Part shown: one piece after another, positions 53,260-64,000 of the stretch
How positions within the stretch are numbered: the first letter of the stretch is position 1
Layout of the letters: every line of letters begins with the position of its first letter
Program-made: the position numbers and the translations under genes
NCBI RefSeq assembly: GCF_902506145.1
Contig: NZ_LR733520.1
Location: 1,377,976 to 1,441,975, forward strand
Source: Burkholderia sp. 8Y
GTDB taxonomy: Bacteria; Pseudomonadota; Gammaproteobacteria; Burkholderiales; Burkholderiaceae
Direction of reading: 5' to 3'
DNA length: 64,000 nucleotides
The notes under the pieces: model-generated
The model's database searches: none
Told to the model about the DNA's origin: nothing
Seen by the model: the letters and a program-made list of their open reading frames with translations, nothing else

Positions 53260-53611
53260 GACGTGGAAAGCGAAGACGGGCGCTGCGCGCCGGAAGCGGA
53301 GCCGAAAAACGCACGGCATCCAGGACGAAGGCTATTTGACCAGCGACGTCGCCCGCCGCCCATGAGACGGCTCTCAAAATCCTCTTGTCCGCGACAAACG
53401 GACGCCGAATCGTCACGGGCTCGGATTATGCGGCGGGCAAACGCGGGTGCGCTTGCAGAATCAGCCGTGCGCCGCAGGGCGGCCGCGTCAGGGGCCGCCG
53501 CGCCAAGTGTCACGCGCGAATGCGAGCGATTCAAACGGCGACACACTGCCGATAGTCAGCCATAATTCGCGTTCTGTACGAGACGTTTCGCCGCGTAAAA
53601 ACGAAAATTTC
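53260..53611. other. Divergent gap before the KaiC-like gene
   Basis: 352 bp without a supported gene. A possible -10 for the plus-strand gene is CATAAT at 53561-53566, but no good -35 lies at the right distance. Nothing else is recognisable. Confidence 0.3.
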
Positions 53612-55123
53612 ATGAGCCAAGACGACAATCTCCCGCCCGACCCAACGCCCGAGCGCGCCGCGAACGACGACAACGTCACCACCGGCGTCCCGGGCCTGGA
53701 CGACATACTCGGCGGCGGCCTTGTCGGAGGCGGGCTCTATCTGATCGAAGGCATGGCGGGCGCGGGCAAGACGATCTTGTCGTCGCAGATCGGCTTTCAC
53801 CGTGTCGCGCAGGGCGACAAGGTGCTCTACATCACGCTCATCGCCGAATCGCACACGAAGCTGCTGTCGCATTTGCGGGCGCTGTCGTTCTACGACGCCG
53901 ACGCCATCTCGGACCGCATGCTCTTCGTGAGCGGCTATCACGAACTGATGCGCGACGGGCTCTCCGGTTTCCTCGCGCTGATCGCCTCCACGATCAAGTC
54001 GAGCCGCCCGCGCTTCATGGTCATCGACGGCTTTCGCAGCGCACGCGAGTTCAGTGCAACGGAACTCGAACTCTCGCAGTTCATCCATGAACTATCGGCG
54101 TTCGTGAGCGCGGCGCGCTGCACGACGCTGATTCTCGCGCCGCTCTCGGGCAACGAGCCGCATCCGGAACACACGCTCGTCGACGGGCTGATCGAACTGA
54201 ACCGATTCAGCACCGGCATGCGCCGCTCGCGGGAGATCGAAGTGCACAAGCTGCGCGCCCGCGATCATCTGCTCGGCAAGCATTTTTTCAATATTTCGAC
54301 GAACGGCCTTGTCGTCTTTCCGCGGTTAGAGGCGTCGCCCGCCAACCAGCACGCGCCGCGTCACTTCGATTCCAAGCTCGCGTTCGGATTTCCGGATTTC
54401 GACCGCATGATGGGCGGCGGCGTGGCGCGCGGCTCGACGACCACGCTCGTCGGCCCGTCGGGCGTCGGCAAGACGCTGCTCGGGCTCAAGTTTCTGCAGG
54501 CGGGCGTCGACCGCGGCGAGCGTTGCGTTTATTTCGGCCTCTATGAATCGCCGGACCGGCTGATCGCGAAGGCGCGCTCGGTGAACATCGATCTGAGCGA
54601 TGCGGTGAATGACGGGCGCCTCTTGATCGACTGGCATTCGGCGGTCGAGCTGTCCATCGACGAACTCGCCGCGCAACTGCTCACGGTGGTCGGACGCACG
54701 AATGCGTCGCGGCTCGTCGTGGATGGCATAGACGGCTTTCGTCTGTCGGCGAACCGCGTCGAACGTTTCGGTCTTTTTCTGAACGCGCTCACGCTGCGGC
54801 TGCGCGATGCCGGCGTCACGACGATTCTCACCGAGGAACTGACGCTGTACGGCGAATCCGCGCCGCCCGCGACCATGCGCGCCTCGGCGATGACCGAGAA
54901 CATCGTGCTGATGCGCTATGTGGAAGCGAATTCGGCGCTGTATCGCATGGTAACGGTCGTGAAGCAGCGCGACAGCGCGCACGATTCCACGATCCGCCGG
55001 CTGACGATCGATGCGCGCGGCCTGCACATCACGGAGAGCTTCATCGGGCCGACGGGCATCCTGTCCGGCCATACGTCGCTCTCGCCTGCGCTGTCCGTGT
55101 CGGATCCCGGCCCGCGCACATGA
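53612..55123 (+). CDS. KaiC-like (RAD55 family) double-domain ATPase
   Basis: 503 aa with two tandem RecA/KaiC domains. The first is about 20-250: GVPGLDDILGGGL, Walker A EGMAGAGKTILSSQIG, catalytic Glu in LIAESHTKL. The second is about 265-490: GFPDFDRMMGGG, Walker A VGPSGVGKTLLGLKF, Glu in YESPDRL. Outside cyanobacteria such proteins occur with histidine kinases or receivers and are thought to act in stress or signalling. No KaiA/KaiB is seen. Its stop overlaps the start of the response regulator (ATGA). Clock function is not implied. Confidence 0.9.
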   Translation: MSQDDNLPPDPTPERAANDDNVTTGVPGLDDILGGGLVGGGLYLIEGMAGAGKTILSSQIGFHRVAQGDKVLYITLIAESHTKLLSHLRALSFYDADAISDRMLFVSGYHELMRDGLSGFLALIASTIKSSRPRFMVIDGFRSAREFSATELELSQFIHELSAFVSAARCTTLILAPLSGNEPHPEHTLVDGLIELNRFSTGMRRSREIEVHKLRARDHLLGKHFFNISTNGLVVFPRLEASPANQHAPRHFDSKLAFGFPDFDRMMGGGVARGSTTTLVGPSGVGKTLLGLKFLQAGVDRGERCVYFGLYESPDRLIAKARSVNIDLSDAVNDGRLLIDWHSAVELSIDELAAQLLTVVGRTNASRLVVDGIDGFRLSANRVERFGLFLNALTLRLRDAGVTTILTEELTLYGESAPPATMRASAMTENIVLMRYVEANSALYRMVTVVKQRDSAHDSTIRRLTIDARGLHITESFIGPTGILSGHTSLSPALSVSDPGPRT

Positions 55124-55476
55124 AAAAGATCCTTGTCGTCGACGACGAATTCGACATTCTGACCACCTGGCGGCTCGTGCTGGAGATGGAAGGCTACGAG
55201 GTGACGACGGCCTCGAACGGGCGCATCGCGCTCGACGCCGCGAACATGAACGCGCCGGACGTCATCATCACGGACTGGATGATGCCGCACATGAACGGCG
55301 TCGAGCTGATCCGCAGTCTCGCGGCGAGCGATACGCTCAACAAGGTGCCCGTAATTCTCATGAGCGCCGCCGCGCACGCGCCGGAGCTGGACCACCCGGA
55401 CGCGCGGTTTCGCAGGAAGCCGCTTTCCATCGACGATTTGCTCGCGCTGGTGGCGCATCTCGTCAGCCGCGGCTGA
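55120..55476 (+). CDS. Single-domain response regulator
   Basis: 118 aa receiver domain only. Acidic pair in KKILVVDDEFDIL, phospho-acceptor Asp in VIITDWMMPHMNG, Ser/Thr switch in VILMSAA and Lys in RFRRKPLS. No output domain. Overlap with the KaiC-like gene implies a shared complex, perhaps one in which phosphorylation gates the ATPase. The cognate kinase is not in this window (the kinase at 1-2823 has its own receiver). Confidence 0.9.
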   Translation: MKKILVVDDEFDILTTWRLVLEMEGYEVTTASNGRIALDAANMNAPDVIITDWMMPHMNGVELIRSLAASDTLNKVPVILMSAAAHAPELDHPDARFRRKPLSIDDLLALVAHLVSRG

Positions 55477-55977: not shown

Positions 55978-56757
55978 CTACACGGCCAGCACATTCGACA
56001 ACGTGCCGATCCCCGCGATCGACACATCGACGCGTGCGCCGTCCTTGATCGACCCGACGCCGATCGACGTCCCGCACGCGATCACGTCGCCGGGCGCGAG
56101 CGTCATGTCGTGCGAGAGCAGGCTCACCTGCTCGGCGGGCGAGAAAATCATGTCGTCGAGCGGATAGTTCTGACGCTCGACGCCATCGACTGTCGTCACC
56201 ACGTTCGCGCTGCGCCAGTCGAAGCCGCTGACGATTCCCGGCCCGAGACACGTGAACGTGTCGAAGCCCTTCGAGCGGCACCACTGCGCGAAGTTGGGAT
56301 CTTCCTGAAGCAGTTCGATCGCGGTGACGTCGTTCACGCACGTATAACCGAAAATCGCGGCTTCGGCCTCTTCCACCGACGCGCACGACACCGTCTTGCC
56401 GATCACGACGCCCAGTTCCCCCTCGTAAGCGATCTTGCCGTGATAATTCCTCGGCCGGCGAATCGACTCGTTTGGCCCGATCACCGACATCGGCGGCTTG
56501 ATCAGAAAGAGCGGATGCTGCGGCGGCGCCTTGTCGAGCTTCTGCGAAAGCGCGTAGTAGTTGTTCCAGAGCGCGATGACCTTGCTCGGCTCGCACGGCG
56601 CAAGCAGCGTGAGGTCGTCCACGGGAAAGGAAATGTCGGTCGGGCGCGGTTCGTCGAACAGCGCGCCGTCGTGCTGCACGACGCGGCCCGAACGCTCGTC
56701 GAGCGTGCCGAAGCCGATATGCCCGCCGGCATCGCGAAAACGTATCCAGGTGGTCAC
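55978..56757 (-). CDS. Fumarylacetoacetate hydrolase family protein
   Basis: 259 aa from GTG at 56757 (AAGGA 6 nt upstream). The fold is shown by FGTLDERSGRVV, LWNNYYALSQKL, the metal-binding YEGELGVVIG (two Glu) and NDVTAIELL (Asp), and CGTSIGVG near the end. Members hydrolyse or decarboxylate 2-oxo acids or hydrate dienoates. Last gene of the minus-strand operon, 50 bp after the NDP-forming ligase gene. It may remove a carbon-carbon-bonded by-product, but the role here is not known. Confidence 0.87.
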   Translation of the reverse strand: MTTWIRFRDAGGHIGFGTLDERSGRVVQHDGALFDEPRPTDISFPVDDLTLLAPCEPSKVIALWNNYYALSQKLDKAPPQHPLFLIKPPMSVIGPNESIRRPRNYHGKIAYEGELGVVIGKTVSCASVEEAEAAIFGYTCVNDVTAIELLQEDPNFAQWCRSKGFDTFTCLGPGIVSGFDWRSANVVTTVDGVERQNYPLDDMIFSPAEQVSLLSHDMTLAPGDVIACGTSIGVGSIKDGARVDVSIAGIGTLSNVLAV

Positions 56758-56807
56758 GGGAGTCCTTTTTCGTTGGCGCGAGCCGAGGCCCGCGCCGTTC
56801 TCTCGGA

Positions 56808-59015
56808 TTAAATCAGGCCCGCGCCGCGCGCCCACTTGTATTTCGCGCCGAGCACCGCGACGGGCAGCTCGGTCGAATACGCGTAGGCCGGCACGCCGTG
56901 TTCGTACAGATACTCGGCCGCCTCCTCCACCTGCACGTCACCGGCGAGCGACGCGACGATCGGCTTTTCGATGCCGCGCGCCTTCATTTCCTCCTTCACC
57001 TCGATCACGAGTTTCGCGAAGACCATCGGCGGCGTGATGATCGTGTGCCAGTAGCCGAGGATGATCGAATGAATGCGGTCGTCTTCGAGCCCGAGCTTGA
57101 TCGTGTTCTTGTACGTGGTCGGCGGCTCGCCGCCCGTGATATCGACCGGATTGCCCGCCGCGCCGAACGGCGGAATGAACTTGCGGAACGCGGCGTCGAG
57201 GTCGTCAGGCATGGTCATCAGCGAGAGGCCGTTGTCCACGCAGGCGTCGGAGAGCAGCACGCCCGAGCCGCCCGCGCCCGTGATGATGACGGTGTTTTCG
57301 CCCTTCGGCGTCGGCAGCTTCGGAATGCCGCGCGCGAATTCGAGCAAGTCGCGCAGCGACCGCGCGCGGATCACGCCGCATTGCGCGAACACGTCCTCGT
57401 AAATCTTGTCGTTGCCCGCGAGCGCCCCCGTGTGGGAACTGGCCGCGCGTGCGCCGAGGCTCGTTCGGCCCGCCTTCAGCACGACGACCGGCTTTTTCTT
57501 CGACACGCGCCGCGCGGCTTCCGCGAAGGCGCGGCCGTCCTTCAGGTCCTCGCAGTGCTGCGCGATGATTTCCGTGTTGTCGTCCTGCTCGAAGAACGTG
57601 AGCAGATCGTCCTCGTCGATATCGCTCTTGTTGCCGAGCCCGACGATGGCGGACACGCCCATCTTCGCCGACCGCGAAAAGCCGATGATCGCCATGCCGA
57701 TGCCACCCGATTGCGACGAGAGCGCGGCCTTGCCCTTCACGTCGTACGGCGTACAGAACGTGGCGCACAGATTCTTCGGCGTGTAATAGAAGCCGTAGAT
57801 GTTCGGGCCCATCATGCGGATATCGTACTGACGCGCAATCCGCACCAGTTCTTCCTGACCGGCCTGATTGCCCGTCTCCGCGAAGCCGGACGGAATCAGC
57901 ACCGCGCCGGGAATCTGCTTTTCGCCCACTTCGACGAGCGCCTGCGCGACGAACTTGGCGGGAATGGCGAACACGGCCACATCGATCACGCCGGGCACGT
58001 CCTTCACGCTCTTGTACGCCTTGCGGCCCATGATTTCTTCGGCTTTCGGGTGAATCGGATAAATCTCGCCCTGATAGCCGCCGTTGATCAGGTTCTTCAT
58101 GACCGAGTTGCCGATCTTGCCGTCCTCGTTCGACGCGCCGATCACCGCGACCGCATCCGGCTTCATGATGCGGTTCATCTGCTTGACGATCTGCTCCTGC
58201 GTCGGGCGATAGCGCGGCTCGGCCGGCTCGAAGTCCATCACGATACGCACGTCCGCCGCCACCGCGCCAGCGGGACTCGCGAAGACCGGATTCAGGTCCA
58301 TCTCCGAGATCTGCGGGAAGTCGTCGACGAGGCGCGACACGCGTTCGACCAGCGTCACGAGCGCCTCGCGGTTCACGGGCTCTGAGCCGCGCACGCCGCG
58401 CAGGACATCGGCGGCCTGAATGCCGTCGAGCATCGACTCCGCTTCTTCGCGCGTCACCGGCGCCAGGCGGAAGGTCACGTCCTTCAGCACTTCGACCAGC
58501 ACGCCGCCGAGGCCGAACGCGATCAGTTTGCCGAACGACGGGTCCGTGACCGCGCCGATGATGACTTCCTGCCCCGCGCCGACCATCTGCTGAACCTGCA
58601 CGCCGACGATGGTCGCGTTCGCGTCGTATTTCTTCGCGTTCTCGATGATGGTCGCGAAGCCCGCCTTCACGTCCGCTTCGTTCTTCACGCCGACGAGCAC
58701 GCCGCCCGCCTCCGTCTTGTGCAGGATTTCGGGCGAGACGATTTTAAGCACCACCGGAAAGCCGATGAACGACGCGAGCTTGGCGGCATCGTCCGCGCTA
58801 GTCGCGACGCCTTCCTGCGGCACCGCGATGCCGTAGGCGTCGCAGACGAGCTTGCCTTCCGGCGCGGTCAGCGACGTGCGGCCCTCGGCCTTCACGCGCT
58901 CGAAGATTTCCGCGACACGGCGCTTCGCGTCGGCCGCATGCAACGGCACGACGATCGATGCCGACGTGGAAGACTGTACGGTTTCGCTGCGTTCCTGGAC
59001 GACCGTGCTGTTCAT
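56808..59015 (-). CDS. NDP-forming acyl-CoA synthetase (acetate--CoA ligase family)
   Basis: 735 aa. It joins the two halves of ADP-forming acyl-CoA synthetase in the order ATP-grasp (about 30-270: VLKIVSPEILHKTEAGGVLV, EVIIGAVTDPSFG) then CoA-binding (about 290-420: AVIGASNEDGKIG) and ligase-CoA domain. The phospho-His loop is SSHTGALAGN. It makes a short acyl-CoA from acid, ATP and CoA with ADP release; acyl range unknown. It follows the CoA-transferase gene, separated by a strong GC hairpin at 59054-59082. Could prime the CoA pool for the transferase. Confidence 0.9.
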   Translation of the reverse strand: MNSTVVQERSETVQSSTSASIVVPLHAADAKRRVAEIFERVKAEGRTSLTAPEGKLVCDAYGIAVPQEGVATSADDAAKLASFIGFPVVLKIVSPEILHKTEAGGVLVGVKNEADVKAGFATIIENAKKYDANATIVGVQVQQMVGAGQEVIIGAVTDPSFGKLIAFGLGGVLVEVLKDVTFRLAPVTREEAESMLDGIQAADVLRGVRGSEPVNREALVTLVERVSRLVDDFPQISEMDLNPVFASPAGAVAADVRIVMDFEPAEPRYRPTQEQIVKQMNRIMKPDAVAVIGASNEDGKIGNSVMKNLINGGYQGEIYPIHPKAEEIMGRKAYKSVKDVPGVIDVAVFAIPAKFVAQALVEVGEKQIPGAVLIPSGFAETGNQAGQEELVRIARQYDIRMMGPNIYGFYYTPKNLCATFCTPYDVKGKAALSSQSGGIGMAIIGFSRSAKMGVSAIVGLGNKSDIDEDDLLTFFEQDDNTEIIAQHCEDLKDGRAFAEAARRVSKKKPVVVLKAGRTSLGARAASSHTGALAGNDKIYEDVFAQCGVIRARSLRDLLEFARGIPKLPTPKGENTVIITGAGGSGVLLSDACVDNGLSLMTMPDDLDAAFRKFIPPFGAAGNPVDITGGEPPTTYKNTIKLGLEDDRIHSIILGYWHTIITPPMVFAKLVIEVKEEMKARGIEKPIVASLAGDVQVEEAAEYLYEHGVPAYAYSTELPVAVLGAKYKWARGAGLI

Positions 59016-59053
59016 TTTTGCGTGTCTCCGTGTGTTCTAGGACGTGTCTGAGC

Positions 59054-59082
59054 CGCGCGCCGCCCGTTGCGGGCGGCGCGCG
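59054..59082 (-). promoter_or_regulatory. 12-bp perfect GC hairpin inside the operon
   Basis: CGCGCGCCGCCC, loop GTTGC, GGGCGGCGCGCG. No U-run follows on the minus strand, so it is not a classical terminator. It lies in the 90-bp gap between the CoA-transferase and acyl-CoA synthetase genes. It may stabilise the upstream message or mark a processing point and so set the ratio of the two halves. Confidence 0.7.
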
Positions 59083-59105
59083 AAGGGCGCATCGGGAGTG
59101 AAGGT

Positions 59106-60362
59106 TCAGATCGCGCCGAGGCTCTTCAGCGTGGCGATTTGGTCCGGCGTGTAGCCGAGTTCGGCCATGACTTCATCGGTATGCTCGCCGAGCAGCGGCG
59201 AGCGCACGACGTCCGTCGGGCTGTCGGAGAGCTTGATCGGGTTGCCGACCGTCAGGTACTTTCCGCGCACCGGATGGTCCACTTCCACGACCGTGCCGGT
59301 CTTTCTGAGCGACGGTTCTTCGGCGATTTCTTTCATCGAGAGAATCGGGCCGCAGGGAATGTCGTGCTTGTTCAGGATCTCCATCGCCTGGAACTTGGTC
59401 TTCGACATGGTCCACCGCTCGATTTCCGCGAAGATTTCCTTCAGATGCGGCAGGCGGGCATTGGGCGTCTTGTAGTCCGGATGATCGATCCACTCTTCCT
59501 TGCCGATGACCTTGCAGATTTCGCCCCACACCGGCGCCTGCGTGATGAAGTAGATGTACGCGTTCGGATCGGTTTCCCAGCCCTTGCACTTGAGAATCCA
59601 GCCCGGCTGACCGCCGCCGGACGCGTTGCCCGCGCGCGGCACCGCTTCTCCGAACGTGCCGTTCGGATACTGCGGGTACTCCTTCATGACGCCGGTCCGC
59701 TCGAGCCGCTGCTGATCGCGCAGCTTCACGCGGCACAGGTTGAGCACGCCGTCCTGCATGGCCGCGAGCACTTTCTGCCCGCGTCCGGTGCGGTTGCGTT
59801 GGTACAGCGCCGTGACGATGCCGAGCGCGAGGTGCAGCCCCGTGCCCGAATCGCCGATCTGCGCGCCGGTGACGGTCGGCGGGCCGTCGTCGAAACCCGT
59901 GGTCGATGCCGCGCCGCCCGCGCACTGCGCGACGTTCTCATAGACCTTGCAGTCTTCGTACGGTCCCGGCCCGAAGCCCTTCACGGACGCCACGATCATG
60001 GCGGGATTCAGTTCCTGGATGCGTTCCCACGTGAAGCCCATGCGGTCCAGCGCGCCCGGCGCGAAGTTCTCGACCAGCACGTCGCACTTCCTGACGAGCG
60101 TTTCGAGCACTTTCTTGCCCTCGGGATTCTTCGTGTCGATGGTGATGGACCGCTTGTTGTGGTTCAGCATCGTGAAGTAGAGGCTGTCGGCATCGGGGAT
60201 ATCGCGCAGTTGCTCCCGCGTGATGTCGCCCGCGCCCGCGCGCTCCACCTTGATGACGTCCGCGCCGAACCACGCCAGCAACTGCGTGCAGGTCGGACCC
60301 GATTGAACGTGCGTGAAATCGAGGATGCGTACGCCATCCAGTGCCTTGCCCGAACTATTCAT
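59106..60362 (-). CDS. frc: Formyl-CoA:oxalate CoA-transferase homologue (Frc)
   Basis: 418 aa class III CoA-transferase. The start [19 protein letters not shown], then [15 protein letters not shown] and [20 protein letters not shown] follow Oxalobacter Frc closely; the Asp in AMQDGVL is the residue that forms the acyl anhydride. [19 protein letters not shown] and GPILSMKE are also shared. In oxalate degraders it moves CoA from formyl-CoA to oxalate. AGGGAG precedes the ATG at 60362. It follows the thiamine-diphosphate enzyme gene by 31 bp. The real CoA acceptor here could differ from oxalate. Confidence 0.88.
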
Positions 60363-60393
60363 GGCTGTCTCCCTGTGTCTTCGATCACGTTCT

Positions 60394-62160
60394 TTATTTG
60401 TACATGGTTTGGGCCATCGTGCCAGGGGCGTAAACCGTAGGATCGACCCAGATATTGATGACCGCGCTCTTGCCGGTTTTCGCGATCGACTCGCGCGCCC
60501 GCTGCAACGCGCCCGCGATCTTCGACGCCTCGTAGACTTCCTCGCCGTAGCCGCCGAGCATTTCGGCGAAGCGGCCATACGGCACGTCCGAGAGCAGATT
60601 GCCGACGTTGCCGCGCTCGTCGCCGTATTTCGCGAGCTGGCCGTAACGGATCTGGTTCATCGCGGAGTTGTTGCCGATCACCGCGATATACGGCACGCCG
60701 AAGCGGTTGGCCGTTTCCATGTCGAACGAGGTCATGGAGAACGCGCCGTCGCCGTAGTAGCAGAGCACTTCCTTCTCCGGATTGGCAAGACCCGCCGCGA
60801 TCGCGAAGCCGGTGCCGACGCCGAGCGAGCCGAGCGCGCCGGGGTCCATCCACTGGCCGGGGCGGCGCGGACGCACGGCTTGCGCCGAGATGGTGACGAC
60901 ATCGCCGCCATCGCCGATATAGATGGTGTCGTCGGACAGGAACTGGTTGATCTCGTGCGCGACGCGATACGGATGAATCGGGCTCGCATCGGACGTGAAC
61001 AGCGGCATGAGCTTGGCGGTCGCGGTTTCCTCCGCCGCCGCGAGCTCGCGCATCCACGCCTGGCGCGACTGGCGCTTGTCGTTCTTCAGACGCCCGCTCG
61101 CGGCTTGCAGCACCGCGCCGAGAATCGCGCCCGGATCGCCGACGAGACCGAGGTCGATATCGCGATTCTTGCCGACGGTGCGGTAATCCATGTCGATCTG
61201 CACCAGCTTCAGCTCCTTGCTGATGCGCTTGCCGTAGCCCATGCGGAAATCGAACGGGGTCCCGACGATCACGATCAGGTCCGCCTTCGCGAAAGCCTGC
61301 GAGCGCGTGCGGTCGAAGTGATGCGGATCGCCCGGCGGCAGGAGGCCGCGGCTCGCGCCGTTGAAGTAGCCGGGAACGTCGAGACCGCGCAGCAACGCGA
61401 TCGCTTCTTCGTGACCGCGCGCCGTCCAGACTTGCTGGCCGTAGAGAATCGCCGGGCGCTCCGAGTTGACGAGCAGATCGGCGAGCTTTTCGATGTCCTT
61501 CGGATCGCCGACCGATTTGGTCGATGCGCGATAGCGTCCCGGCTGCGGAATCACGGCCTTGCTCACGTCGATTTCGCGGTCGAGCACATCGCGCGGAATT
61601 TCCAGATACGCCGGGCCGGGCGCGCCGTTGAAGGCTTCGCGCGCGGCCATCGACACCATGTCGGCGACGCGCTCCGTGCTCGGCACGGTCGCGGCGAACT
61701 TGGTGATGGGCGACATCATGTCGACGTGCGGCAGATCTTGCAGCGAACCCATCTTGTGCTGCGTGAGCGCGCCCTGCCCGCCGATATGGATGATCGGGCT
61801 TTCCGAGCGAAACGCCGTGGCGACGCCCGTGACCGCGTTCGTGCAGCCGGGGCCGGCCGTCGTCACCACGCAGCCGAGCTTGCCGGTCTGACGCGCGTAG
61901 CCGTCGGCGGCATGGGCGGCGACCTGTTCGTGACGCACGTCGATGATGCGGATGCCTTCATCGACGCAGCCATCGTAGATATCGATGATGTGCCCGCCGC
62001 ACAACGTGAAGATGGTATCGACGCCTTCGTTCTTGAGAGCTCGCGCGACCAGATGGCCGCCCGAAACGACGCCCGCGCCGCGCGTCTTCTGCTTGAGCGT
62101 GTCATCGGCGGTGGTGGTGGCTGGAGCGACTTCCGGACGGCTGCTGACGACTTCGGACAT
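60394..62160 (-). CDS. Thiamine-diphosphate enzyme, oxalyl-CoA decarboxylase or 2-hydroxyacyl-CoA lyase type
   Basis: 588 aa with the three-domain acetolactate-synthase layout. N-terminal Pyr domain with catalytic Glu in [16 protein letters not shown] and [17 protein letters not shown]-terminal PP domain with the ThDP motif YYGDGAFSM...IGNNSAMNQ. The opening [15 protein letters not shown] resembles the ILVBL/HACL2-like branch, whereas classical oxalyl-CoA decarboxylase reads VYGVVGIPITNL-like there. Next to frc it probably produces or uses formyl-CoA: decarboxylation of oxalyl-CoA, or cleavage of a 2-hydroxyacyl-CoA to an aldehyde or ketone plus formyl-CoA. GAGGAGGAG precedes the ATG at 62160. 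Confidence 0.85.
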
Positions 62161-62224: not shown

Positions 62225-62245
62225 TGTGATATACAATATTCCACA
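62225..62245. promoter_or_regulatory. Candidate operator over the minus-strand promoter
   Basis: TGTGATATAC-A-ATATTCCACA is an imperfect inverted repeat (7 of 10 pairs match, outer arms TGTG/CACA). It covers the -10 of the minus-strand promoter. It shares TGTGATATA with the second site at 62389-62408. Confidence 0.5.
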
Positions 62246-62260
62246 CACAGTATTAGTCAA
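62233..62260 (-). promoter_or_regulatory. Sigma-70-like promoter of the thiamine-enzyme/frc operon
   Basis: On the minus strand TTGACT (62260-62255) is followed after 16 bp by TATTGT (62238-62233), about 75 bp before the ATG at 62160. It is the best promoter match in this region. Confidence 0.5.
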
Positions 62261-62382: not shown

Positions 62383-62408
62383 CTGATATGTGATATATCT
62401 AATATCAG
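62383..62408. promoter_or_regulatory. Inverted-repeat operator before sucC-like gene
   Basis: TGATATATCTAATATCA (62391-62407) has perfect 6-bp arms around ATCTA. An outer pair CTGATAT/ATATCAG (62383-62389, 62402-62408) has 7-bp arms. It is AT-rich in a GC-rich setting and shares TGTGATATA with the site at 62225. A GntR- or LysR-type regulator could bind, but none is encoded in view. Confidence 0.55.
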
Positions 62409-62496: not shown

Positions 62497-63687
62497 ATGA
62501 ACATTCACGAGTATCAAGCGAAGGCGCTGCTGCGAAAGTACGGCGTCGCGGTGCCGCAGGGCCGCGTCGCGTTCACGGCGCAGGAGGCCGCCGACGCCGC
62601 CAGCGCGCTCGGCGGCCCGGTCTGGGTCGTAAAGTCGCAGATTCATGCGGGCGGGCGCGGCGCGGGCCGTTTCGTCAACGATCCCGATGGCAAAGGCGGC
62701 GTGCGCGTCGTGAAATCAGTGGACGATGTGCGCGAGAACGCGCGAAAGATGCTGTCGTCCGTGCTCGTCACCAAGCAAACCGGCGCGGCGGGCAAGGAAG
62801 TAAAGCGGCTGTATATCGAGGAAGGCTGCGACATCGCACGCGAGCTGTATCTCGGCATCCTGGTCGACCGGGCGACGTCGCGCATCACGATCATGGCGTC
62901 GACGGAAGGCGGCATGGAGATCGAGGAAGTCGCGCATCGCACGCCCGAGAAAATACTCAAAGTCGCGATCGATCCGGCGACCGGTCTTCAGCCCTTTCAC
63001 ACGCGGCAGGTCGCGTTCGGCCTGGGGCTCACCGGCAATCAGGTGAAAGCGGCGTCGAAGTTCATCGCCGCGCTGTATCAGGCGTTCGTCGATCTGGACG
63101 CGTCCGTGGTCGAGGTGAATCCGCTCGTCGTGACCGGCTCCGGCGACGTCATGGCGCTCGACGCCAAGCTCAATTTCGACGACAACGCGCTGTATCGCCA
63201 CCCGGATGTGGAAGCCCTGCGCGACGAGGACGAGGAAGATCCCGCCGAAATCGAAGCCGCGAAGCACGGGCTCAATTACGTGAAGCTGGACGGCAGCATC
63301 GGCTGCATGGTGAACGGCGCGGGCCTCGCGATGGCCACCATGGACATCATCAAGCTCTACGGCGGCGAGCCGGCCAATTTCCTGGACGTGGGCGGCGGCG
63401 CGACGCAGGAACGCGTCGCGACCGCATTCAAGCTGATTCTGCGCGATCCCAAGGTGCAAGGCATTCTCGTCAACATTTTCGGCGGCATCATGCGCTGCGA
63501 CGTGATCGCACAAGGCGTCGTCGCGGCGGCGCGCGAAGTGGATCTGCGCGTGCCGCTCGTCGTGCGGCTGGCCGGCACGAATGTCGATGCGGGCCGCGAA
63601 ATCCTGCGCACGTCCGGGCTCACCATCATCTCCGCCGACAATCTCGCCGATGCCGCCGACAAGATCGTCAGCGCCGTCCACCATTGA
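62497..63687 (+). CDS. SucC-like succinate/malate--CoA ligase beta subunit
   Basis: 396 aa ATP-grasp subunit. [53 protein letters not shown] and [15 protein letters not shown] are standard. The sequence, for example [20 protein letters not shown] and [18 protein letters not shown], looks closer to alphaproteobacterial SucC and malate thiokinase than to what I recall of the housekeeping Burkholderia SucC. So it is probably a second copy tied to this cluster, possibly acting on malate. AGGAG lies 7 nt before the ATG at 62497. The SucD-like gene follows at 12 bp. Confidence 0.88.
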
Positions 63688-63699
63688 AAGGAAGCCTCC

Positions 63700-64000
63700 A
63701 TGAGCGTTCTGATCGACAAGAATACGAAGGTGATCTGCCAGGGCTTCACCGGCGCGCAAGGCACGTTTCACTCTGAGCAGGCGATTGCCTACGGCACGCG
63801 AATGGTCGGCGGCGTCACGCCCGGCAAGGGCGGCACGACGCATCTCGACCTGCCGGTTTTCGACACGGTGGCCGACGCGGTCGCGAAAACAGGGGCGGAC
63901 GCCTCAGTCATCTACGTGCCGCCGCCGTTCGCCGCCGACGCGATCCTCGAAGCCATCGATTCGGAAGTGCCGTTGATCGTCTGCATCACCGAAGGCATTC
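63700..64000 (+). CDS. SucD-like succinate/malate--CoA ligase alpha subunit (3' end outside window)
   Basis: First 100 codons of the CoA-binding alpha subunit: [40 protein letters not shown] and [25 protein letters not shown] lies before the ATG. The phospho-His region lies beyond base 64000. With the beta subunit it makes a working ligase that forms succinyl-CoA or malyl-CoA. Confidence 0.88.

Follow-up and report, generated by a model that had tools for sequence, protein, structure and literature searches.

The operon at 55978-62160 of the window (the whole 64,000-nucleotide stretch of the Burkholderia sp. 8Y contig NZ_LR733520.1 that was analysed) couples frc, which encodes formyl-CoA:oxalate CoA-transferase, to a gene for a thiamine diphosphate (ThDP) enzyme that is not a classical oxalyl-CoA decarboxylase (Oxc). 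This arrangement raises the question of what supplies Frc with formyl-CoA, and from which acid. Judged from sequence, the ThDP enzyme is very probably a replacement for Oxc, an oxalyl-CoA decarboxylase with its origin outside the classical clade, since its gene occupies the place of Oxc in the oxalate cluster, in some genomes under the same promoter. The assignment draws on gene content, exclusion with Oxc, common neighbours and a common promoter, all established by computation, and on the phenotypes of oxalate-degrading strains; from these we infer the catalytic steps, above all the substrate. The four genes of the operon, which the original prediction had already grouped, do lie together on one strand, with short gaps of 31 bp (ThDP enzyme to Frc), 90 bp (Frc to synthetase) and 50 bp (synthetase to FAH):

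60394-62160, minus strand: ThDP enzyme, 588 residues; proposed non-orthologous oxalyl-CoA decarboxylase, from profile scores, tree and exclusion with Oxc.
59106-60362, minus strand: frc, formyl-CoA:oxalate CoA-transferase, 418 residues; TIGR03253 match.
56808-59015, minus strand: NDP-forming acyl-CoA synthetase, 735 residues, from its Pfam domains and closest solved structures.
55978-56757, minus strand: FAH-family protein, 259 residues; PF01557, with an uncertain start (reading frame open to 56835).

The frc product is a bona fide Frc, as had been proposed, with a TIGR03253 score of 736.2 bits (curated cut-off 504.2) and E. coli YfdW as its closest solved structure. The closest solved structures of the synthetase are 4-hydroxybutyrate- and 3-hydroxypropionate-CoA ligases. 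The two peptides of the ThDP enzyme quoted in the original prediction are present in the translation of 60394-62160, and its view that this is not an Oxalobacter-type Oxc stands: the enzyme scores 232 bits with the Oxc model TIGR03254 (cut-off 739.4), and no gene reaching the Oxc cut-off was found anywhere in the window's genome (99.99% complete). Placement within the Oxc clade, the outcome that was to refute the original prediction, was checked by phylogeny; the enzyme and its orthologs form a clade of their own with support of 100/100, and a joint clade with Oxc is rejected (approximately unbiased test, p-AU 3.5e-8). A clade with the group of AcHACL, a 2-hydroxyacyl-CoA lyase, is compatible with the data (p-AU 0.09, not rejected) in a tree that contained neither HACL2 nor IlvG sequence; a PRK05858 protein over the cut-off, wanted as a reference for it, was not found in the four genomes or records searched (L109 excluded). 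The proposed affinity to HACL2/ILVBL-type enzymes held in part. The best NCBIfam models are indeed PRK05858, which we take to be the model linked to HACL2/ILVBL and mycobacterial IlvG-like enzymes, and the actinobacterial lyase model NF058623, and Gln141 and the active-site helix agree; the scores of 448 bits (cut-off 587) and 358 bits (cut-off 600), respectively, are both too low for membership, and the acid/base Glu is absent. A Streptomyces ortholog reaches 516 bits with PRK05858, and the best match of the enzyme in the PDB by sequence is AcHACL (274 bits). PRK05858 carries the label acetolactate synthase; this identity was rejected, a true acetolactate synthase being encoded elsewhere in the genome (L005, 1267 bits). 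The window's enzyme is 100% (rounded) identical to a protein of Caballeronia sp. GAFFF1, which marks the genome as Caballeronia-like, and the family occurs in Proteobacteria, Actinobacteria and two metagenome-assembled genomes labelled Acidobacteria or Acidobacteriota. In a survey of 1396 Oxc sequences, all were joined in a single network when the threshold was 50% identity (PMC7190790); this family would fall outside it, its identity to Oxc being 25-26%. Membership of the Oxc family fails on score, clade and active-site residues, and the partnership with Frc and an oxalate antiporter is shared; for this enzyme, function seems not to follow clade.

Linkage to Frc was counted at 85 loci of the ThDP enzyme, comprising 80 from a homology search, the window's own and four further records. 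Frc is present in full at 80 of them and is cut by a contig end at three more, so that the pairing is not due to chance; at one of these three, L052, Frc lies at the other contig end, not directly downstream. At the remaining two loci the contig stops with the ThDP gene. The other neighbours are GntR (59 loci), the oxalate/formate antiporter OFA (52), FAH (48), the synthetase (46), PanE (39) and SucC (36), counts that are lower bounds because many loci are short. A Streptomyces record holds the ThDP gene, frc, an acetate-CoA ligase family protein, an OFA transporter and divergent sucCD, and a Phyllobacterium plasmid has annotated oxlT, frc, two sucCD pairs, an acetate-CoA ligase family protein, FAH and 2-dehydropantoate 2-reductase; in both records the NCBI name of the ortholog is thiamine pyrophosphate-binding protein and nothing more. 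At three Cupriavidus loci (L035, L032 and L107) the ThDP enzyme shows 86-87% identity to its counterpart in the window and the adjacent Frc only 62-63%, as if Frc had been swapped beside a conserved ThDP gene.

Mutual exclusion with classical Oxc was assessed by three identical searches (Frc, Oxc and the ThDP enzyme) of 200 Burkholderiaceae genomes and 297 genomes of the Labrys okinawensis order; Oxc was counted at E ≤ 1e-150, and four of the genes so counted, two in each genome set, are partial and score under the cut-off. Frc was found in 194 genomes, which divide into 146 with Oxc only, 41 with the ThDP enzyme only, three with both and four with neither. In the Burkholderiaceae, Frc is present in 110 genomes (83 Oxc only, 22 ThDP enzyme only, both in G061, G164 and G175, neither in G087 and G098), and every genome with either enzyme also has Frc. 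The Labrys order has Frc in 84 genomes (63 Oxc only, 19 ThDP enzyme only, none with both, neither in G302 and G427), and in one further genome, G482, the ThDP enzyme lies near a contig end and no Frc match was obtained at the limit used. Fisher tests of the exclusion give p values of 8e-18 (Burkholderiaceae) and 6e-17 (Labrys order), which are not strict probabilities because the genomes are related; the exclusion recurs within three genus groups (p 4e-4, 2e-5 and 3e-3), a fourth falling short of significance (p 0.09). Among 42 genomes chosen for holding the ThDP enzyme, drawn from 43 of the 80 loci of the homology search with L042 left out, 35 lack Oxc at E ≤ 1e-100 and seven have it. These counts bear on the suggestion that the enzyme is an ordinary acetolactate synthase-like passenger of frc, with oxalate used only by reduction of oxalyl-CoA to glyoxylate. 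The label of the best model and the bare name in the two annotated records would suit a passenger, which is nevertheless scarcely credible given the separate acetolactate synthase in the genome, the tight linkage of the gene to Frc and the need of Frc for formyl-CoA, whose known source, Oxc, is absent from the window's genome and from 35 of the 42 others.

The surroundings of the operon extend beyond the range covered by the original prediction, which omits the divergent sucCD-like pair, partly within the window, and the regulator, reductase and antiporter further out:

62226-62260, minus strand: 35-bp promoter/operator-like stretch; the identical sequence precedes classical oxc in two further genomes of this genus.
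62384-62407: GTGATATA-type palindrome, the second such box, lying between the divergent genes; putative GntR site.
62497-63687, plus strand, divergent: sucC-like CoA ligase beta subunit (PRK00696, 590.7 bits, cut-off 370).
63700-64000, plus strand, continuing past the window end: sucD-like CoA ligase alpha subunit (L003 9676-10548).
L003 10629-11447 (reading frame), beyond the window: GntR regulator.
L003 11686-12699, beyond the window: 2-dehydropantoate 2-reductase-family (PanE) gene (subfamily match 513 versus 223 bits).
L003, beyond the window, between the PanE-family reductase and the antiporter: LysR-like gene.
L003 13822-15171, beyond the window: MFS oxalate/formate antiporter (TIGR04259, 632 bits, cut-off 335).

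The antiporter exceeds its curated cut-off and, together with the PanE-family reductase that also lies beyond the window, makes the whole cluster an oxalate module. The PanE-family gene is a candidate for the oxalyl-CoA reductase PanE2/ApbA2, its established assignment being to a 2-dehydropantoate 2-reductase subfamily. Downstream of the cluster, on the opposite strand (53447-55476), are a two-domain KaiC-like ATPase, identified visually through its P-loop motifs, and a response regulator with a single domain.

At 20 classical Oxc loci of 13-19 kb picked across genera, the neighbours are Frc (20), GntR (17), OFA (11), FAH (9), PanE (6), SucCD (3) and the synthetase (2); none of these was found at the same thresholds in ten control stretches, of which three were 19-kb pieces cut from the window and seven were 8-10 kb loci around other ThDP enzymes. 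In trees of GntR, OFA and PanE built from the Oxc loci and 14 selected ThDP loci, the two kinds interleave by taxon; the C. metallidurans CH34 copies, for instance, sit beside those of the Oxc locus L155 (genus group g3). The 35-bp stretch, which has promoter-like hexamers, occurs with no mismatch upstream of the ThDP gene in the window and at seven other loci named Caballeronia or Burkholderia, and likewise upstream of classical Oxc at L145 and L150 in the window's genus group; in genus group g19, three Oxc loci carry it with one or two mismatches. A scan at up to three mismatches, from which four of the window's own loci were left out, detected it nowhere but upstream of the ThDP gene or Oxc and at L135 (G098). 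The GTGATATA/TATATCAC box is present within 450 bp upstream at 41 of 81 ThDP loci (four of the 85 were dropped, their flank being too short) and at 12 of 20 Oxc loci, with 0.01 expected from the flanks. The common promoter stretch is the most telling sign of in-place replacement.

Two genomes bear further on this stretch. In G109 (genus group g9), two copies of the ThDP enzyme lie in two different frc loci, L136 and L137, one of which carries the stretch with two mismatches. In G098, of the window's genus and the one of the four Frc-positive genomes with neither enzyme whose locus was inspected, L135 from 7916 onwards has kept the promoter stretch, sucCD, GntR, PanE, OFA, frc and FAH; the ThDP gene was not found in this cluster, nor Oxc in the genome search, and the retained cluster is likely to be a case of natural loss.

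Strains of known phenotype provide a separate line of evidence. The ThDP gene is carried by P. tuberum LMG 21444 (L059), P. graminis C4D1M (L050) and P. kururiensis KP23 (L046), and the strain of L024, C. grimmiae R27, is presumably LMG 27580. In these P. tuberum, P. graminis, P. kururiensis and C. grimmiae genomes no match was found to Oxc (E ≤ 1e-100) or to OxdC (E ≤ 1e-10). OxdC as a stand-in for Oxc was rejected more generally: of 13 genomes tested, G041 has OxdC and the other 12 gave no match. Oxalate degradation is reported for P. tuberum LMG 21444, P. graminis C4D1M, P. kururiensis KP23 and C. grimmiae LMG 27580 in a 2026 study (PMC13184526), which describes several oxalotrophic strains as being without oxc and calls oxc and frc the traditional genes for finding putative oxalate degraders in genomes; its available passages name no replacement for the missing oxc. 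The available expression data for Collimonas PMB3(1) could be assigned to neither enzyme type. In our searches of the open-access literature we found no description of an alternative Oxc of this clade.

Several observations weigh against the proposed replacement. The synthetase lies beside the ThDP enzyme at 46 of 85 loci versus beside Oxc at two of 20 (in stretches that are somewhat shorter), which could mean a different need. The 35-bp stretch is local, occurring at up to nine mismatches upstream of only 10 of 81 ThDP loci and nine of 20 Oxc loci, and both enzymes are present in seven of the 42 chosen genomes and three of the 200 Burkholderiaceae. In P. phytofirmans PsJN, deleting the gene that PMC3886118 names oxc and calls single-copy is enough to abolish oxalotrophy. 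Finally, the key Oxc residues Tyr120, Glu121, Tyr483 and Ser553 (O. formigenes numbering; PMC10192776) correspond to Leu, Gln, Ile and either Ala, Asn or Ser, respectively, in 14 aligned orthologs of the ThDP enzyme, so that the residues give no support for a mechanism common to both, and Leu140/Gln141 resemble AcHACL. Gln141, at the position of AcHACL Q128, is present at 85 of 85 loci, and at all 85 the acid/base Glu of known lyases is missing (Ile504 at the position of AcHACL E493, Gly507 at that of HACL2 E557); the lyase positions are taken from the available published descriptions, that of E493 being assigned by motif match. Candidates for binding the oxalyl-CoA carboxylate, among residues that are invariant in the family, include Gln503, Arg505 and Arg516, together with the conserved YAPGT..QTMYK tail at the C-terminus. 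The AlphaFold model has a mean pLDDT of 75, with residues 499-507 and 585-588 under 50, and because of this middling quality no active-site geometry was taken from it.

The original prediction envisaged a 2-hydroxyacyl-CoA lyase, with the synthetase activating a 2-hydroxy acid, cleavage to a carbonyl compound and formyl-CoA, and recycling of CoA by Frc. The nearest curated models of the ThDP enzyme, the match of Leu140/Gln141 to AcHACL and a clade with the AcHACL group at p-AU 0.09 speak for such a route, which we nonetheless regard as very improbable. The antiporter, PanE, the exclusion with Oxc, the common neighbours and promoter, and the oxalate-degrading strains without Oxc point to oxalyl-CoA, and not to another acid, as the substrate, and the missing acid/base Glu of the known lyases gives such a route no support either. 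On a Bosea sp. plasmid (L113), a different PRK05858-like ThDP enzyme (under the cut-off) comes after the gene of a CoA-transferase, close to genes for MmgE/PrpD and isocitrate dehydrogenase; this may fit the formyl-CoA idea of the original prediction better than the window does.

With the ThDP enzyme as the decarboxylase, the cluster could work as follows. Oxalate would enter through the oxalate/formate antiporter, and Frc would transfer CoA from formyl-CoA to oxalate, giving oxalyl-CoA and releasing formate; that Frc passes on CoA from formyl-CoA had been foreseen and fits the cluster. The ThDP enzyme would then convert oxalyl-CoA to formyl-CoA and CO2 and close the cycle; it is the candidate source of formyl-CoA because Frc needs this compound, Oxc is absent and the ThDP class is known to release it. 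The PanE-family reductase may divert part of the oxalyl-CoA to glyoxylate, so that CoA leaks from the cycle, and the ADP-forming synthetase and the SucCD-like ligase may charge oxalate with CoA and make good the loss; the synthetase would serve either this activation or ATP recovery. Alternatively, the enzyme could be a carboligase that joins a carbanion from formyl-CoA (or derived from oxalyl-CoA) to glyoxylate or formaldehyde and so assimilates oxalate carbon. Engineered Methylorubrum OXC and lyases are reported to condense formyl-CoA with carbonyl compounds, and the PanE-family gene could supply glyoxylate; replacing Oxc requires a decarboxylase, however, and a glyoxylate carboligase proper is already encoded in the genome (L006, 1199 bits, cut-off 711), which leaves this alternative highly improbable. 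That the decarboxylase is naturally bifunctional, also passing the formyl-CoA carbanion to glyoxylate or formaldehyde to give tartronyl-CoA or glycolyl-CoA, is very improbable, and the lyase-like Leu-Gln pair in an oxalate operon would be compatible with it; the cluster would then represent natural formyl-CoA-based C1-C2 assimilation, like the engineered pathways with mutated Oxc and lyase.

A different setting is seen in the Labrys order, in small genomes of 1.3-1.6 Mb (local GC 0.34-0.37), five of seven of which were represented by the loci L139, L140, L141, L142 and L144 (G243, G287, G318, G366 and G405). These hold the ThDP gene, frc, a formyltransferase-like gene and formate-tetrahydrofolate ligase, and two of the five show by eye formate dehydrogenase-like subunits, one of which matches NuoF models under the cut-off. 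No antiporter match was found in the five stretches fetched. Such genes make formate a plausible product here too.

If the ThDP enzyme is the decarboxylase, the replacement would explain oxalate degraders seemingly without Oxc, and the family is a testable candidate in oxalotrophs without oxc that oxc-based surveys would miss. It would also show clearly that two thiamine enzymes of distant relationship can be exchanged at one place, catalysing the same reaction with unlike active-site residues, and would provide a new scaffold for formyl-CoA chemistry.

Among known systems, classical Oxc (TIGR03254; O. formigenes, E. coli and M. extorquens) shares with the ThDP enzyme the fold, the cofactor class, the Frc partner and neighbours including GntR and the antiporter, as well as, within the window's genus, the 35-bp stretch; it differs in sequence (25-26% identity, the score being far under the family cut-off), in its separate clade and in having Tyr120, Glu121, Tyr483 and Ser553. 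AcHACL (NF058623) is the best PDB match by sequence and has the Leu-Gln pair and the active-site helix sequence in common with the enzyme, whereas its catalytic E493 is replaced by Ile504, the model score is under the cut-off, its operon partners, in the available account, are others (PMC7176365) and by fold it is only at rank 50. Human HACL2 too has Ile in place of AcHACL E493, and its Gln matches Q128 (PMC13327070); the differences are its E557, where the present enzyme has Gly507, and the PRK05858 score of the present enzyme, which stays under the cut-off. The frc-oxc locus of C. necator H16, deletion of which abolishes growth on oxalate, resembles the present cluster in having Frc, a decarboxylase and, close by, the PanE2-type oxalyl-CoA reductase apbA2 (PMC7486775).
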